From IMG/VR virus record IMGVR_UViG_3300025137_000171, positions 1 through 30,617 of that record: a DNA stretch of 30,617 bases. One strand, written 5' to 3'. Made by a program: the position numbers and the translations under genes. The stretch comes from a virus. Each line of letters starts with the position of its first letter. Position 1 is the stretch's first letter. This document shows positions 6,076 to 20,931 of the stretch, piece after piece. The notes below the pieces were generated by a model. The model made no database searches and was not told the origin of the DNA. It saw nothing but the letters and a program-made list of their open reading frames with translations.

Positions 6076-7017
6076 ATGATAATAGCAGGAGCAGGATTGG
6101 CAGGATTAATAGCAGGAAATATATTTAGGAATTACTCTCCTAAAATGATAGAACGACAGGAATCACTTCCTAACAATCACAGAGCAATATTAAGATTTAG
6201 AGATGACTCTGTTTCTAAAGCAACAGGCATAGAATTTAAAAAAGTAAAAGTAAGAAAGGCAATATCTTACAAAGAGCAATGGCTAGATAGATCTAACCCA
6301 AAAGTTTCTAATCTATACTCTTTAAAAGTAACTGGAAAAGTAGATTCAAGATCTGTTTGGAATCTAGCAGATGCAGAGAGGTATGTATCACCAGAAGACT
6401 TTATCATGCGTATTTCTAAAGGTTTAGATGTTCAATATGGTGAAGAGTTACATAAATCTATGTTTGATGGTCAGCCTGTTATATCTACAATACCAATGCC
6501 AGCTATGATGGATTTAGTTGGATGGAAAGAAAAGCCAGAGTTTCCTTACAGAAGCATATGGTCTTGTTGGTGTGTTATTGATGATTTCGAGGTAAATGTA
6601 AATCAGACTATATATTACCCAGATTTGAAAGTTCCTTATTACAGAGCATCGCTACTAGGAAACAAATTAATATTAGAGTACAATCAAGAGCCTTGGCAAG
6701 CACAAGAAGACGTACTTACAGTTTTAAATTCTGACTTCGGAATAGATTCTAAAGTATCAGAGTTAAATGTTAAAAAGCAAAAGTTCGGAAAGATATCTAA
6801 GATAGATGATGATCTTAGGAAAGAATTTTTATATTTTTTAACAAGAGAATACAATGTGTATTCTTTAGGAAGATTCGCAACATGGAAACAAATAATTTTA
6901 GATGATGTCGTTGATGACGCAAATAAAATTATGAAATTAATTAATGTTGAGAATAAAAGAAGAAACTATCATGTTAATTTAAACATAATGAGAGGAGAAC
7001 AAGATGGCAAAAGTTAA
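6076..7017 (+). CDS. FAD/NAD(P)-binding oxidoreductase-like protein
   Basis: The N-terminus MIIAGAGLAGLIAG is a textbook dinucleotide-binding GxGxxG Rossmann motif at residues 4-9 with a second glycine at 14, followed by an acidic residue at the expected end of strand 2 (MIERQ, E27). A further motif ends near residue 285 with YSLGRFATWKQ, resembling the C-terminal FAD contact of flavin monooxygenase or amine-oxidase-like folds. At 313 residues it is compact. It overlaps thyX by 14 nt, so both are translated together. The substrate is unknown; involvement in nucleotide or DNA base chemistry is inferred only from neighbours. Other possibilities are a sugar mutase-like or tRNA-modifying flavoprotein. 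Confidence 0.65.
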   Translation: MIIAGAGLAGLIAGNIFRNYSPKMIERQESLPNNHRAILRFRDDSVSKATGIEFKKVKVRKAISYKEQWLDRSNPKVSNLYSLKVTGKVDSRSVWNLADAERYVSPEDFIMRISKGLDVQYGEELHKSMFDGQPVISTIPMPAMMDLVGWKEKPEFPYRSIWSCWCVIDDFEVNVNQTIYYPDLKVPYYRASLLGNKLILEYNQEPWQAQEDVLTVLNSDFGIDSKVSELNVKKQKFGKISKIDDDLRKEFLYFLTREYNVYSLGRFATWKQIILDDVVDDANKIMKLINVENKRRNYHVNLNIMRGEQDGKS

Positions 7018-11797: not shown

Positions 11798-12331
11798 ATG
11801 AAAGTAAAGAACTGCATAGAATGTAACAAAGAATTTACTGTTAATAAATGGCAACAAGGAAAATTATATTGTACAGAATTATGCAAACCCAATTACAAAA
11901 TAACAAGAGGAAACTCTATGAGTGAAAGTAATTTGTGGAGATACTTTCAAAGAAATATGAAAAGTAAAGGAGTTATTCAAAGAGTAGAAAATGCATTTTA
12001 TAAAGGTATGCCTGATGTTAATTACTTAATTGAAGGGAAAGAAGGCTGGATAGAATTAAAATATTCAAAAGAATATCCAAAGAAAGAAACCACTTCTGTT
12101 AGGCTTCATCACTTTACCAAAGAACAAAGGATTTGGCATCGCGATAGATTAATTAAAAAAGGCAGAACAAATATACTTTGGCAAATAGAAAAAGATTATT
12201 ACTTATTTTGTAATGAAAATATTGCATTGATAGGTACTCTGACAAGAAAACAAATGGGAGAAAAAAGTGATGGATTTTGGTCAAAGAAAATAAATTTTGA
12301 AAATATGAAAAGGTTATTATGCAATCAATAA
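11798..12331 (+). CDS. PD-(D/E)XK (VRR-NUC-like) nuclease with N-terminal zinc ribbon
   Basis: The N-terminal 30 residues hold four cysteines (C6, C9, C25, C29), a CxxC and CxxxC pair typical of a small zinc ribbon. The remainder is a nuclease core: SESNLWRYFQR helix with an acidic residue, GMPDV, then WIELKY (ExK motif), and a HHFTKEQRIWHRDRLIKKG helix as in VRR-NUC and Holliday-junction-type phage nucleases. A second start at 11918 (M41) has its own Shine-Dalgarno AAGAGG (11905-11910), which would give a product without the zinc ribbon. It follows the polymerase gene by 1 nt. Confidence 0.75.
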   Translation: MKVKNCIECNKEFTVNKWQQGKLYCTELCKPNYKITRGNSMSESNLWRYFQRNMKSKGVIQRVENAFYKGMPDVNYLIEGKEGWIELKYSKEYPKKETTSVRLHHFTKEQRIWHRDRLIKKGRTNILWQIEKDYYLFCNENIALIGTLTRKQMGEKSDGFWSKKINFENMKRLLCNQ

Positions 12332-12666
12332 ATTTAACGAACTCAGAAAGGTTTATGTTAGCTAGAAGAAGATTAGACATGTCTAGAGAAGATTATGCTA
12401 CTAAGTTTAACATGACTGTGTATAGAGTTATAAAAATAGAAAATGGCTTCTCTAAAAACTTTAAAGTTGCTATGTTAGTAAAACCAAAAATACATGAAAT
12501 TGCTTTTATACTTAGGAAAAGATGTAATTTAAAAGTTAAAGAATTAGCAAAACTTTTAAAAGTTAGTAAACAAACAATATTGAATAGAGAAGCTGGTAGA
12601 AGAGATCCAATACCAAGTATTGAATTTTTGTATTTTTATAAAGGAGAGTCAAATGATGAATGTTAA
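12319..12666 (+). CDS. Protein with two helix-turn-helix segments
   Basis: The 115 residues contain two HTH-like units. The first (about 8-45) reads NSERFMLARRRLDMSREDYATKF...VYRVIKIENG, in the style of Xre/Cro. The second (about 58-100) reads HEIAFILRKRCNLKVKELAKLLKVSKQTILNREAGR, also Xre-like with the typical ExG/R end. It is likely a DNA-binding regulator or replication accessory. The start is inside the 3' end of the nuclease gene (13-nt overlap) with AAAAGG upstream. Its target is unknown; the CTAATAT array or the shared promoter motif are candidates. Confidence 0.65.
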   Translation: MQSINLTNSERFMLARRRLDMSREDYATKFNMTVYRVIKIENGFSKNFKVAMLVKPKIHEIAFILRKRCNLKVKELAKLLKVSKQTILNREAGRRDPIPSIEFLYFYKGESNDEC

Positions 12667-16252: not shown

Positions 16253-17209
16253 TTATGCTATTTTCTTTATCCAGCCTACCTTGTTTTTGTCTAATTTTAG
16301 CTCTTCATCTATGATGATTTGCTTTTTAACATCAGCAACATTTTCCTCAATAAAGGTTACTGCTTGTTGTGCTTTGGCACAGGCTTTAAAGATTACATCA
16401 GAATCGTCCTTGATTCTATCGCTCCAGATCTTTAAGTATTGTGCTGACTCTGGCTTTGGTTCTCTAGTAATACCTAACACAACGCACTGAATATGAGCAC
16501 CCATTTCAGCAACCAACTCTTCAAAGGCATAGTCAAACTTACCAAGTCTGTCAAGTCTTTTTTCATTACCAGTAGAGTGAACCATTTCATGAAGTAGTGT
16601 GCTATAATAGTTCTGTGTTGCTGTGCTTTCCTTAGTTGCTTTAAACTTTTCAGCAGGCACCATGTTAATTTGATCAGTACTAGGCGAATAGAAACAACTG
16701 TCTGTATTCTCATTAATAAGATCTATATCTTGCTGTGCCATATAATTCTCACAGTACGCATCAACTTCAAAGCTATTAGCAAAACCATTTGGTTGTAATT
16801 TTAAACTCTCATCAGTTAAGTTAGTTTGATCAAGGTTGAATACAGAGTAAAATCTCTGCATTACTATTTGTTTCTTGTAATCTTGACCTTTCTTTGGACC
16901 TGCTTTGTAAGTATCGTCAACTTGTAAAGGTTTCCAAAGCACGACCTCAGTACCAGATTCACCTTTGTTTACTCTGCCACCTGCTTGGTTGATTTGTTTA
17001 AAGGTTGCCCAAGTATTACTCTCAAAGTTGCGAGACCACTTAGTTAAGCCGAGCCAGAAACAGTTTACTCCACGATAGTTAGTACCACGAATATTTCTAG
17101 GCAGACCAGTAGTGAACCATGGCTTCATCCAGTTCTTACCATGCTTATCTATTTCTGCTACCATCGCACTTGCGATTTGGTTCTTTATTTCTTCATTTGA
17201 TTTTGGCAT
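16253..17209 (-). CDS. ArdC-type antirestriction protein with zincin metallopeptidase
   Basis: ArdC proteins protect incoming DNA from host restriction. The 318 residues have the N-terminal ssDNA-binding domain (NWMKPWFTTGLPRNIRGTNYRGVN near 26-49, then TWATFKQINQAGGRVNKGESGTEVVLWKP near 66-94) and a C-terminal zincin domain with HEMVHSTG (HExxH at 207-211) and the downstream glutamate in YAFEELVAEMG near 227-237. Both halves look complete. The leader AACCAAGGAGAATAAAATG supports the start. It follows two small genes in one transcript and is closed by a strong terminator. In a phage this points to entry-phase anti-defence; a role in DNA replication is an alternative suggested for plasmid relatives. 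Confidence 0.88.
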   Translation of the reverse strand: MPKSNEEIKNQIASAMVAEIDKHGKNWMKPWFTTGLPRNIRGTNYRGVNCFWLGLTKWSRNFESNTWATFKQINQAGGRVNKGESGTEVVLWKPLQVDDTYKAGPKKGQDYKKQIVMQRFYSVFNLDQTNLTDESLKLQPNGFANSFEVDAYCENYMAQQDIDLINENTDSCFYSPSTDQINMVPAEKFKATKESTATQNYYSTLLHEMVHSTGNEKRLDRLGKFDYAFEELVAEMGAHIQCVVLGITREPKPESAQYLKIWSDRIKDDSDVIFKACAKAQQAVTFIEENVADVKKQIIIDEELKLDKNKVGWIKKIA

Positions 17210-17932: not shown

Positions 17933-18277
17933 TTAGATTTTATAAAGGTCATAAGCAAGTGTCAGCTCATCACCTTTACTTATATTTTGTTTTGTAATTA
18001 AAATATATTTAACATCAACGAAAGAACCAATAACATTGAAGCCTTGATCAACTTGCTTTATCTTTTTACAGTTGGGTTGGTCGCTGTGATTTATAAAACC
18101 ACCGAGCGGAGTTCTTATTATATATTCATTATGATAGTGGTGAATGATTCCTAGTTCATGGTTGGCTTTTATATCTTCAGTTGCGAATAATCCTAGCCCA
18201 TGAATGGTTGATTGTTTGATTGTAAGGTTGCTTGGTAATGGTTTGTAACTTATTTCTTTTTGTTCATTTGTTTCCAT
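17933..18277 (-). CDS. SET-domain protein, putative lysine methyltransferase
   Basis: SET enzymes methylate protein lysines using S-adenosylmethionine. The 114 residues hold the essential pieces: HGLGLFATEDIKA (GxG SAM loop, about 27-39), FINHSDQPNC (the NHSxxPN SAM/knot motif, about 81-90) and GDELTLAYD (the C-terminal ExxxxY motif, about 102-110). The length is that of a minimal SET domain without pre- or post-SET zinc clusters, as in bacterial and viral members. Its first codons overlap the upstream 101-aa gene by 28 nt. The target could be a host or virion protein; unknown. Confidence 0.85.
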   Translation of the reverse strand: METNEQKEISYKPLPSNLTIKQSTIHGLGLFATEDIKANHELGIIHHYHNEYIIRTPLGGFINHSDQPNCKKIKQVDQGFNVIGSFVDVKYILITKQNISKGDELTLAYDLYKI

Positions 18278-18555
18278 GCTATTCTTATTCTCTTCTGACT
18301 TTCGTCTGTAAATACTTCTATTGGGTAAACATTTCTATCACCATAACCAATATCATCTTTGACTTGGTATGATGCGAAAGTTCTAACATACTCACGACCA
18401 TCAACAGCTTGAATATCGTACAAGAAACATTCAGTAATTATTTCACAGCATTTCATTTTACTGAAGTCGTCTGTGCTTACTGTGGTTGAATCTCCTGCTA
18501 TATCTATCCAGGTTAGTCTAAGTCTTTGATGCTTGGTTGTACCTATTGTGATCAT
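18250..18555 (-). CDS. Hypothetical protein, 101 aa
   Basis: This beta-rich protein (HQRLRLTWIDIAGDSTTVSTDD, then YDIQAVDGREYVRTFASYQ, and YPIEVFTDESQKRIRIAW) has no recognised family. It is the first gene leftward from the non-coding region at 18556-18991 and overlaps the SET gene by 28 nt, so the pair is probably made together. There is no clear Shine-Dalgarno before its ATG; AT-rich TATAAT-like sequences lie upstream. Confidence 0.55.
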   Translation of the reverse strand: MITIGTTKHQRLRLTWIDIAGDSTTVSTDDFSKMKCCEIITECFLYDIQAVDGREYVRTFASYQVKDDIGYGDRNVYPIEVFTDESQKRIRIAWKQMNKKK

Positions 18556-18637
18556 GGCTATATATTATTATATTTGCAATAATATTATATAAATAAAAAT
18601 ATTTTATTTTGCCCTGTGTAACTTTTCTGCATTTGTA

Positions 18638-18719
18638 CTAATATGCTAATATTTGATAGGAAAACCCTTATTGAATTGATGATATTAGTTCTTAACTGAT
18701 ATTAGATAAAACTAATATA
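18638..18719. repeat. CTAATAT heptamer array upstream of late promoter
   Basis: Five copies occur in 82 bp: CTAATATG (18638-18645) and CTAATATT (18646-18653) in tandem, inverted copies GATATTAG at 18681-18688 and 18698-18705, and CTAATATA (18712-18719), which directly abuts the -35 box. Two more lie at 19456-19471. The arrangement resembles operators for a multimeric DNA-binding protein, or binding sites for the small terminase. Confidence 0.6.
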
Positions 18720-18748
18720 TTGACTTGATTTGAAACTTATCACATAAA
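18720..18748 (+). promoter_or_regulatory. Promoter candidate for the late operon
   Basis: TTGACT (18720-18725) and CATAAA (18743-18748) are 17 nt apart, a good sigma70-type match. The last CTAATAT element touches the -35 box, suggesting regulation. The first certain gene begins 240 nt downstream, leaving room for a leader or packaging site. Confidence 0.55.
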
Positions 18749-18808
18749 AATTACCACACATCTTTGTCTTTTTGTTTTGTATAAACCTAAAATAGATTAT
18801 AAAAGATT

Positions 18809-18925
18809 ATGGCTCATTATAAACGAGCCGAGAACCAAGCACTTTCAAACATAAAGAACCAAGTAAGAGCCATTAATAATAGGTTAATAATGCCTTGGTA
18901 TAGGTTGCACAGATTTAGCGTTTAA
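18809..18925 (+). CDS. Possible 38-aa basic peptide
   Basis: An ATG frame encodes MAHYKRAENQALSNIKNQVR then AINNRLIMPWYRLHRFSV in the gap before the small terminase. The composition is protein-like (basic, helical), but no clear Shine-Dalgarno precedes it, and a short GGCTC/GAGCC hairpin (18811-18829) begins at its start codon. It may be a real small late protein or part of an untranslated packaging region. The remaining gap on either side shows only the repeats and promoter noted separately. Confidence 0.3.
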   Translation: MAHYKRAENQALSNIKNQVRAINNRLIMPWYRLHRFSV

Positions 18926-18991
18926 GACTCATAATTCTAGCACTGCTTCCCCTACTAGGTATTTGCAAAATGAGGAACAAGGAGATAGATT

Positions 18992-19360
18992 ATGGGTATT
19001 AGAGGACCAAAGCCTGGAAATCCAAGGATAGGAGGAAGGCAAAAAGGTACACCAAACAAGAAGACTGCTGAAATACAAGAAAGAGTAAAGAAGTTTATGG
19101 AGCAAATGGGAGTCAAGAACTTTGATCCTCTCATGGCTTTGGCTGGTATCGCAGTTGATAAAGGCACACCACTAAAGTTAAAGGTTGATGCACTTAAAGA
19201 AATAGCACAATACATGCATCCTAAAAGGAGAGCTGTGGAGATTTCTGGAGAACAAACTATAAATGTTCAAGAGAAACAGAAGAAGATAAAAGAACTAGAC
19301 GACTTGCTGAATGAAATTGAAGATGAAAAACTAAAAGAAAATCAAACAACTATAAATTAA
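18992..19360 (+). CDS. terS: Putative terminase small subunit
   Basis: Small terminases bind the packaging site and load the large subunit. The 122 residues begin GIRGPKPGNPRIGGRQKGTPNKKTAEIQER in pieces, a basic N-terminus typical of phage terminase small-subunit-like proteins, followed by a helical region (VKKFMEQMGVKNFDPLMALAGIAVD, VDALKEIAQYMHPKRRAVEI) and a charged coiled-coil tail that could mediate oligomerisation. The position just before the large terminase supports the call. The Shine-Dalgarno AAGGAGA is strong. The family match is moderate, not certain. Confidence 0.7.
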   Translation: MGIRGPKPGNPRIGGRQKGTPNKKTAEIQERVKKFMEQMGVKNFDPLMALAGIAVDKGTPLKLKVDALKEIAQYMHPKRRAVEISGEQTINVQEKQKKIKELDDLLNEIEDEKLKENQTTIN

Positions 19361-19455
19361 TTTCTGGTTTGCAAATTTTTTGCAAGTCAAAATGCATAAA
19401 TAGGTTATACTGCAAAAAACTTTTTTATTTTGACGAGTGTAAAATGAGTAATATC

Positions 19456-19471
19456 CTAATATGCTAATATT
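19456..19471 (+). repeat. CTAATAT tandem pair overlapping a start codon
   Basis: CTAATATGCTAATATT is an exact 16-bp copy of 18638-18653. In both places a TTTATTTTG...GTGTAA segment lies about 25-30 nt upstream. Here the ATG of the 74-aa membrane protein is inside the repeat, so a protein bound to DNA or RNA here would affect its initiation. Confidence 0.6.
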
Positions 19472-19685
19472 AAGATGGAATGCTTTCCTTATAGCATTTA
19501 TTTCTGTTTACATATTAACACAACCAAATGTTGATATGCAATGGTTTGGATGGTCTTTGTCTTCAGTCTCTTGTTTCATGTGGTTTTTAGTTGCAAGAAG
19601 AGACAAAGATATACCTAGAAGCCTTATGGAATTGATGTATCTTTTAATGGGATTATGGGGTATATATAATTGGTATGGCTATTGA
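19461..19685 (+). CDS. Small membrane protein between terminase genes, 74 aa
   Basis: Three hydrophobic segments are visible: about 6-20 (WNAFLIAFISVYIL), about 28-45 (WFGWSLSSVSCFMWFLVA) and about 56-73 (LMELMYLLMGLWGIYNWYGY), with a short basic loop ARRDKD. It is likely a two- or three-pass membrane protein. It overlaps the large terminase start by 11 nt. Holin-like size is suggestive but position argues neither way. No Shine-Dalgarno is seen; a seven-codon frame (19444-19467) overlaps its start and could couple translation. Confidence 0.6.
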   Translation: MLILRWNAFLIAFISVYILTQPNVDMQWFGWSLSSVSCFMWFLVARRDKDIPRSLMELMYLLMGLWGIYNWYGY

Positions 19686-20931
19686 ACTAGAATCGCTATC
19701 TGATATCGAAATAGAAACTAGATTACTAAGACTTAAATGGATTAAATCAGCACGACCCAAACAATTAACACCGAAAGGTGATTGGTCTATTTGGCTGATT
19801 TTAGCAGGGAGGGGATGGGGCAAAACTTTAACAGGTGCACACGACATGGCATGGTTTGGATTAACTAATCCCGATAGTCGTCTAGCAATAGTTGCACCAA
19901 CCTTTGCAGATGGTAGAGATACTTGTATTGAAGGAGAGTCTGGATTGTTATCTGTTCTTAATGAAGAAGTTATTGCAAATTACAATAGATCTTTAGGAGA
20001 ATTAATTTTAAAAAACGGAACAAGGTACAAAACATTTAGTTCTGATACTCCTGAAAGATTACGTGGACCACAGCACCATAGAGTTTGGTGTGATGAGTTA
20101 GGCTCTTGGAAGTATAGTGAGACATGGGATCAAATGATGTTTGGTCTAAGGTTGGGTGATCATCCAAAAGTTATAGTTACAACAACTCCAAAGCCAATAC
20201 CATTAGTGAAAGAGTTACACAAAAGAACAGACACACATGTTACTTCTGGATCTACTTTCGAAAACAAAGCAAATTTAGCAGAAGCAAGTTTAAAACAACT
20301 AAAAGAAAAATACGAAGGCACAAGACTAGGTCGTCAAGAATTATATGCTGAAGTTCTAGAAGATGTAGAAGGAAGTTTATGGAACAGAGAAATGATCGAA
20401 TCGTCCATGATTCGTTTTAATGAAAAGTTGCCAGACTTTAAAAGGATTGTAGTCGCAGTAGATCCTGCAGTTACAGCCAATGTAAATTCTGATGAGACAG
20501 GTATAGTAGTTTGTGCAACAGACTTCAAAGGTAAATTCTACATACTAAATGATCTTTCTGGTAAATATAGTCCTGATACTTGGGCAAAGAAAGCAGTTGA
20601 GGCATATGAAAGTTATAAAGCAGACAAAATCATCGCAGAAGTCAACAATGGTGGGGATTTGGTGCAAAAAGTTGTCAAAACGATAGATCCTAATGTTAGT
20701 TACAAGGCAGTTAGAGCAACTCGTGGTAAATTCGTAAGAGCAGAGCCTATCGCAGCATTATATGAACAAAAAAGAGTCAAACATGTAGAAAGGTTCAATA
20801 ATTTAGAAGATCAACTCTGCAGTTACAACCCTGAAATAACTTCTCAGTCACCAGACAGGCTAGATGCTTTAGTTTGGGGACTAACTGAGTTAAGTGCAAG
20901 GTCTGGAGTTGCTAGTTGGAGGATAAGTTGA
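19675..20931 (+). CDS. terL: Terminase large subunit
   Basis: This is the packaging motor and headful or cos nuclease. The 418 residues have Walker A AGRGWGKT (44-51), Walker B VWCDE (137-141), a coupling motif VTTTPKP (168-174), then the RNase H-like nuclease with D262 (VAVDPA), E321 (IAEVNNGGD) and the C-terminal aspartates in SPDRLDALVW (391-400). The length is normal for the Terminase_6 group found with HK97-type heads. It overlaps the gpF-like gene by 4 nt, with no portal gene between. Confidence 0.95.
   Translation: MAIELESLSDIEIETRLLRLKWIKSARPKQLTPKGDWSIWLILAGRGWGKTLTGAHDMAWFGLTNPDSRLAIVAPTFADGRDTCIEGESGLLSVLNEEVIANYNRSLGELILKNGTRYKTFSSDTPERLRGPQHHRVWCDELGSWKYSETWDQMMFGLRLGDHPKVIVTTTPKPIPLVKELHKRTDTHVTSGSTFENKANLAEASLKQLKEKYEGTRLGRQELYAEVLEDVEGSLWNREMIESSMIRFNEKLPDFKRIVVAVDPAVTANVNSDETGIVVCATDFKGKFYILNDLSGKYSPDTWAKKAVEAYESYKADKIIAEVNNGGDLVQKVVKTIDPNVSYKAVRATRGKFVRAEPIAALYEQKRVKHVERFNNLEDQLCSYNPEITSQSPDRLDALVWGLTELSARSGVASWRIS

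Follow-up and report, generated by a model that had tools for sequence, protein, structure and literature searches.

Several phage and plasmid regulators are known to act through clusters of short repeats in promoter regions. The Alt protein of phage TP901-1 binds four imperfect direct repeats located between positions -76 and -32, and repeats at -107 to -42 are needed for promoter activity in Phi13 (PMC13123087). Late-activator repeat arrays of this type are the closest functional precedent for the locus described here, which shares with the targets of Alt, of Ltr from the Staphylococcus aureus phage Phi13 and of the RinA class the presence of short repeats in a promoter region by packaging and late genes, a likely target for a phage protein (PMC13123087). 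Unlike those sites, however, the repeats of this locus have another motif and a mixed orientation, form two arrays around the small terminase gene (terS), and keep a fixed spacing to a leftward promoter-like box and not to a late promoter. A second comparison is offered by omega, the ribbon-helix-helix protein of pSM19035, which recognizes 7-bp heptads arranged in both orientations across promoter regions (PMC9499535). The units of our locus are likewise non-palindromic 7-bp repeats, direct and inverted, near a putative promoter region, but whereas omega sites consist of 7-10 contiguous heptads, here each array has two to three units at 8-bp spacing, together with spaced inverted units.

The window analyzed is the whole 30,617-base stretch of the IMG/VR virus record IMGVR_UViG_3300025137_000171 (record class linear), from an uncultured tailed phage. 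It contains replication genes (primase, helicase, DNA polymerase III alpha, and exonuclease), a cluster of small leftward genes at 14.1-18.6 kb, and a rightward late operon. The latter begins with a probable terS of 122 aa (18992..19360, plus strand) and continues with an ORF for a 74-aa membrane-protein-like product (19461..19685, plus strand), the large terminase gene terL (19675..20931, plus strand; Terminase_6N/6C), and genes for head morphogenesis, protease, and major capsid proteins. The probable terS precedes terL and matches phrog_15261/8771, with no function assigned in PHROG; an alignment was also used for this assignment, and the predicted structure of the product is of low confidence (pLDDT 65, pTM 0.31).

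Two arrays of the heptamer CTAATAT were found, one at each side of terS. Site 1 comprises five units in a span of 81 bp (18638-18718): two tandem units on the plus strand (18638..18644 and, 8 bp later, 18646..18652), two inverted units on the minus strand (18682..18688, a constant 36-37 bp after unit 2, and 18699..18705, 16-17 bp after unit 3), and a fifth unit on the plus strand (18712..18718). All the elements listed in the earlier note, five heptamers of which two are tandem and two inverted, are therefore present, except that the fifth one does not touch the proposed -35 box but sits one base from TTGACT. Site 2, between terS and terL, has two exact heptamers on the plus strand (19456..19462 and 19464..19470), the second of which overlaps codons 2-4 of the 74-aa ORF. 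Upstream of them lies a degenerate third unit, GTAATAT (GTAATATC; 19448..19454, plus strand), which is a full unit in most relatives (CTAATAT in L004, L006, L009, L012, L016, and L031). The exact 16-bp copy of the tandem pair previously reported at 19456-19471, overlapping the start codon of this ORF, was found as described, and the 16-mer CTAATATGCTAATATT has exactly two occurrences in the whole record.

The motif is clustered in this putative promoter region beyond what chance would give. The window has 15 copies of CTAATAT where 8.8 ± 2.8 would be expected, and 7 of the 15 copies fall in the two arrays. The remaining eight correspond to background density. When the window was shuffled 400 times under an order-1 Markov model, no 82-bp span contained more than two copies and the array 16-mer was absent from all of them, which bears out the claim that the region holds more order than an AT-rich background should give. 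Chains generated with the local AT-rich intergenic composition (2000 in total) reached a maximum of four copies per 436 bp. Outside the two arrays, no pairs of units at 8, 16, or 17 bp were detected in the window or in the late-operon contigs G009 (24.5 kb) and G005 (21.2 kb).

A search with TerL yielded 42 viral loci, all relatives being contig fragments. Site 1 is kept in 12 other contigs (TerL identity of at least 79%, region spanned): L003, which is nearly identical to the window, L004, L005, L006, L008, L009, L010, L012, L013, L014, L016, and L017. Site 2 is kept in these 12 relatives and also in L007, L011, L015, and L031. The loss of the array in close relatives sharing these late genes, which according to the earlier note would have spoken against it, was thus not seen: in the alignment, all relatives that span the region retain it. 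As several of these relatives are close kin (L010/L013/L014 with L008/L134; L012/L016/L017; L005/L006), they represent approximately five independent lineages. No arrays were found in nine records with TerL at 62-65% (L019-L027), and in the six of them that were read an HTH-type TerS is encoded immediately 5' of terL.

Conservation is concentrated in the units and in a nearby box. In 10 nonredundant relatives, the mean pairwise identity of the four core heptamers is 0.97 vs. 0.50 in the array spacers, and none of 20,000 random block placements reached the identity of the four core units. TAATAT of unit 1 is invariant in these relatives, and unit 5 shows a weaker conservation (mean identity 0.78). 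Identity in the same set reaches 0.94 in the box TTTGCCC, 0.56 in the stretch between box and array, and 0.58 in the upstream 45 bp. Counted from the box, the starts of the site 1 units fall at +30, +38, +74/75, +90/91, and +103/104, offsets that hold in all relatives except for being one base shorter in L004; unit spacing and distance to the box are constant within 1-2 bp, and the box is located 29-30 bp from the first unit in all array-bearing relatives. Hence, both the sites and their spacing are under selection in the relatives. A pattern scan for the complete site 1 in the viral collection retrieved 13 contigs, 12 in this genus and L214, which has none of the proteins of the window, whereas the same scan in the bacterial collection gave merely two single matches, in unrelated bins. 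These comparisons demonstrate two conserved arrays of fixed geometry, restricted to two places in the sequence examined.

The box associated with site 1 (18608..18614, minus strand), which reads GGGCAAA on the minus strand and lies 30 bp before unit 1, is a candidate -35 or activator box for leftward transcription. Read in this direction, AGGGCAAA has TATAAT, TATACT, or TTTACT at 26-30 positions from it, and the start codon of the leftward operon comes next. The candidate -10 of the window is TATAAT (18584..18589, minus strand), and TWTAMT is found at an offset of 26-30 from the box in the relatives read. The predicted element AGGGCAAA-N17-21-TATAMT, tied to array 1 and the box, is likely to be a leftward promoter. 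Eight of 10 relatives have the leftward start codon 60-65 nt away from the box, and L006 and L017 have it at 120 and 172 nt, respectively. The first gene of the leftward operon (18250..18555, minus strand) is an unrelated ORF in the window, and its place is taken by a gene for an HExxH metallopeptidase (M78/IrrE-like, weak match) in 8 of 10 relatives; altogether, array 1 precedes three unrelated leftward first genes, the window and L006 both carrying unrelated ORFs. The small HExxH protein (approximately 115-125 aa), encoded by the first leftward gene in L014, L012, L009, L004, and others, shows weak matches to Peptidase_M78/IrrE and DUF6782. Proteases of the HExxH M78/IrrE-like kind can inactivate repressors.

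Array 1 lies 340-354 bp from terS in 7 of 10 relatives, 485-489 bp from it in L012 and L016, and 1093 bp in L017. In these last three contigs, insertions part the array from the terS leader, and both the 29-30 bp spacing to the box and the leftward promoter-like sequence are retained. The flanks of array 1 show 42-bp and 27-bp tandem repeats in L017 (945-1037 and 1267-1862), and other DNA inserted 5' of terS in L012 and L016. Since array 1 can be displaced from terS yet remains tied to the box and to the leftward promoter-like sequence, box and array constitute a unit of their own, most plausibly a regulated leftward promoter that has its binding sites upstream. Against this stand the weak conservation of the leftward -10 region (identity of 0.58 in the upstream columns) and the chance rate at which promoter-like matches arise in AT-rich DNA. 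The late promoter TTGACT-17-CATAAA, formerly proposed as the partner of the array, did not withstand the comparison: its letters are present in the window, but they are conserved in no relative.

Site 2 has a comparable layout. A box TTGMCG is followed by units at 18-21, in exact 8-bp steps. In the window, this box is CGTCAAA on the minus strand (TTTGACG on the plus strand; 19429..19435), which resembles the box of site 1 (27-nt repeat, 81%), and a candidate minus-strand -10, TATAAC (19404..19409), corresponds to an exact TATAAT in L010, L013, L014, L134, and L015. The ancestral site 2 probably consisted of three 8-bp units, as in L006 (CTAATATGCTAATATGCTAATATT), of which the window would retain two plus the degenerate one. 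The 74-aa ORF, which starts inside site 2, is absent from L006, L007, and L031, yet the site is retained in them just 5' of terL. Where the ORF is present, its codons 2-3 are CTA (TTA in L015) or GTA, followed by ATA, in all lineages; except for the TTA of L015, these are minority codons in the late genes, with CTA accounting for 20% of Leu, GTA for 33% of Val, and ATA for 36% of Ile. Because it is kept without the ORF and minority codons are held in all lineages, site 2 is, judging from these comparisons, not a coding by-product. Although it repeats the arrangement of box and -10, a leftward promoter at this place would run antisense to terS, and the site could just as well act on the terL leader. 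A rightward promoter formed by TTGACG and the first TAATAT of site 2 as -10 was also considered, and is unlikely since the spacer is of 13-16 and differs among relatives.

The best explanation for these data, and in our opinion a probable one, is that the sites are paired operator or enhancer arrays for one phage DNA-binding protein, which would coordinate the leftward operon with the expression of terS and terL. The suggestion of an operator array for a phage regulator, already put forward in the earlier note, is thus the reading favored by a non-random array retained in close relatives. Both arrays would provide cooperative binding sites for one sequence-specific phage DNA-binding protein. 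Site 1 would occupy approximately positions -66 to -140 relative to a leftward promoter with the conserved box AGGGCAAA as -35 region, and site 2, with two or three direct units at 8-bp spacing beside a similar box, would lie over the leader of the terL-capsid operon. Once bound, the protein would regulate the leftward operon from an upstream position while acting at the start of the terL operon, either as a roadblock or through a bridge between the arrays that spans terS, and as an outcome leftward expression and packaging/structural expression would be opposed to each other. Binding by a protein, activity of the leftward promoter, and the effect on expression, including its sign, are what we infer from the sequence comparison; the weakly conserved -10, the antisense orientation of the site 2 promoter, the distant start codons of L006 and L017 (120 and 172 nt from the box), and the failure to detect a ribbon-helix-helix protein among those scanned count against the operator function. 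A bolder version, which we hold to be rather unlikely, would have a single phage protein bridging both arrays with the terS segment looped, the packaging genes being silent during leftward expression and the opening of the loop representing the early-to-late switch of the genus; in a variant of it, TerS itself would bridge the arrays, joining packaging-site recognition and autoregulation. The control signals of uncultured phages are almost never known, and here the comparison of related contigs alone leads to a base-level footprint of two co-conserved candidate binding arrays. The motif so defined, CTAATAT on an 8-bp lattice and set apart from a second element at fixed distance in the terS leader, provides testable oligonucleotides and reporter constructs, as well as a marker for this phage genus.

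This second element, TTTTTGTTTTG-N7-CTAAAATAGATT (18769..18798, plus strand; also written TTTTTGTTTTG-N7-CTAAAATAGRTT), is separate from the array and is found 201-205 bp 5' of the terS ATG in all 13 records, the same 12 viral contigs holding both the element and site 1. It is a candidate late promoter or cos-like site. The terS leader (18769-18991 in the window) is noncoding and of near-fixed length, with conserved islands (AGAACCAAGCA, ATTTAGYGTTT, and TAGGTATT) and a dyad, AAYCTA-AAA-TAGRTT. A fixed length together with this dyad would fit a cos-type site or a late promoter. A conserved RNA fold of the leader was also tried and discarded, as it was weak and without compensatory pairs. The cos site of lambda-like phages spans approximately 200 bp and comprises cosQ, cosN, and cosB (PMC4669245). 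The window similarly has a conserved noncoding stretch of about 200 bp right before terS (18787-18991), but unlike in the cosQ-cosN-cosB organization, this stretch lies apart from the heptamer arrays. In L019-L024, TAAAATAGCG appears at a fixed distance, approximately 140 bp 5' of the unrelated HTH-type TerS; farther upstream, these records have three TATTA repeats with approximately 10-bp spacing beside a leftward promoter-like TTTACA-16-TATAAT.

The leader element seems a better packaging-site or late-promoter candidate than the heptamers, and its fixed position at 201-205 bp before terS argues against the arrays being themselves pac- or cosB-like recognition sites for the small terminase, in which the core that separates units 1-2 from units 3-4, inverted relative to each other, might be the region that is cut. 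We regard recognition by the small terminase, also raised in the earlier note, as unlikely, even though both arrays flank terS, some conservation is seen in the core CCTTATNNAAC that separates the inverted units, and all array-bearing records have this TerS type (70-99% to that of the window) where terS is present in the record, whereas the sister clade (TerL 62-65%) lacks arrays and encodes a different TerS, of HTH type. The co-occurrence with this TerS type therefore holds, but none of 31 distant TerS relatives, scanned for exact heptamers, has a comparable array nearby, and the arrays as a general feature of the TerS family were discarded. The pac site of SPP1 provides a precedent, in which short repeats occur in several sets at the gene of the small terminase (PMC6316719); nevertheless, it is one region over the promoters and start of gene 1, while here the arrays lie at either side of terS, one of them overlapping the next gene. 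Site 2, being located beyond terS, is unlike the cos or pac sites considered, and site 1 is found upstream of the gene at a variable distance, displaced by insertions in L012/L016/L017 and with its spacing fixed to the promoter-like box. The contig-end coordinates of the relatives showed no obvious pile-up.

It is improbable that the arrays are the iterons of a replication origin, present twice and with unwinding at the AT-rich stretch next to each box. As in oriL and oriR of SPP1, two copies of direct repeats adjoin AT-rich DNA, although in a genome that is itself AT-rich; but the SPP1 origins are approximately 13 kb apart, and the copies in the window are separated by merely 0.8 kb, around terS. 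In addition, GC skew tracks gene orientation with no separate origin signal at the arrays, no initiator gene adjoins them, and mixed orientation and overlap with a start codon, as at site 2, are unusual for iterons. Action of the repeats at the RNA level, whether through a leader structure or as a translational operator, is very improbable. The inverted units of site 1 could pair, and the 74-aa ORF has its start codon within site 2; however, with direct units 8 bp apart but inverted units at 16-17, only isolated 7-bp stems can form, the invariance of the units leaves no compensatory change supporting pairing, and site 2 is retained where the ORF is missing. Searches for Rfam families and tRNAs gave no match. 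Finally, a functionless chance clustering or mini-satellite in AT-rich DNA is scarcely credible: 8-bp CTAATAT repeats do form long tandem arrays in unrelated AT-rich contigs, but the shuffle tests and a phylogenetic footprint with fixed geometry in 13 records contradict such an origin. The tandem arrays of this kind in L071, L065, L125, and others were discarded as relatives of sites 1 and 2, as they are simple repeats in unrelated contigs; that of L071, a contig of 33 kb, is a long array of CTAATATG/CTAATATT 8-mers (6153-6416).

Regarding the protein that would bind the proposed operators, the product of the gene at 12319..12666 (plus strand), singled out in the earlier note, is a genuine double-HTH protein and the sole clear HTH regulator among the proteins scanned. 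Its homologues were found only in the array-bearing L006 (62-63%) and in L216, a contig that apparently stops short of terS. The protein thus remains a candidate binder kept in an array-bearing relative, but nothing in the sequence ties it to the arrays. Homologues of Alt/Ltr/RinA-type regulators were not seen in the proteins scanned. An 8-bp direct period is present at both sites, with two to three contiguous units per site, and it resembles the lattices of ribbon-helix-helix repressors such as omega; MetJ boxes are of 8 bp. No member of the ribbon-helix-helix family was detected with Pfam in the part of the proteins of the window that was scanned, the genome extending beyond the window. Among the leftward genes, the phage also encodes a SET-domain protein (17933-18277, minus strand; PF00856, E 3.6e-10), present in several relatives too, and an ArdC-like anti-restriction protein (ArdcN plus MPTase-PolyVal; 16253-17209, minus strand), whose gene has a different orientation in L013, L014, and L134.
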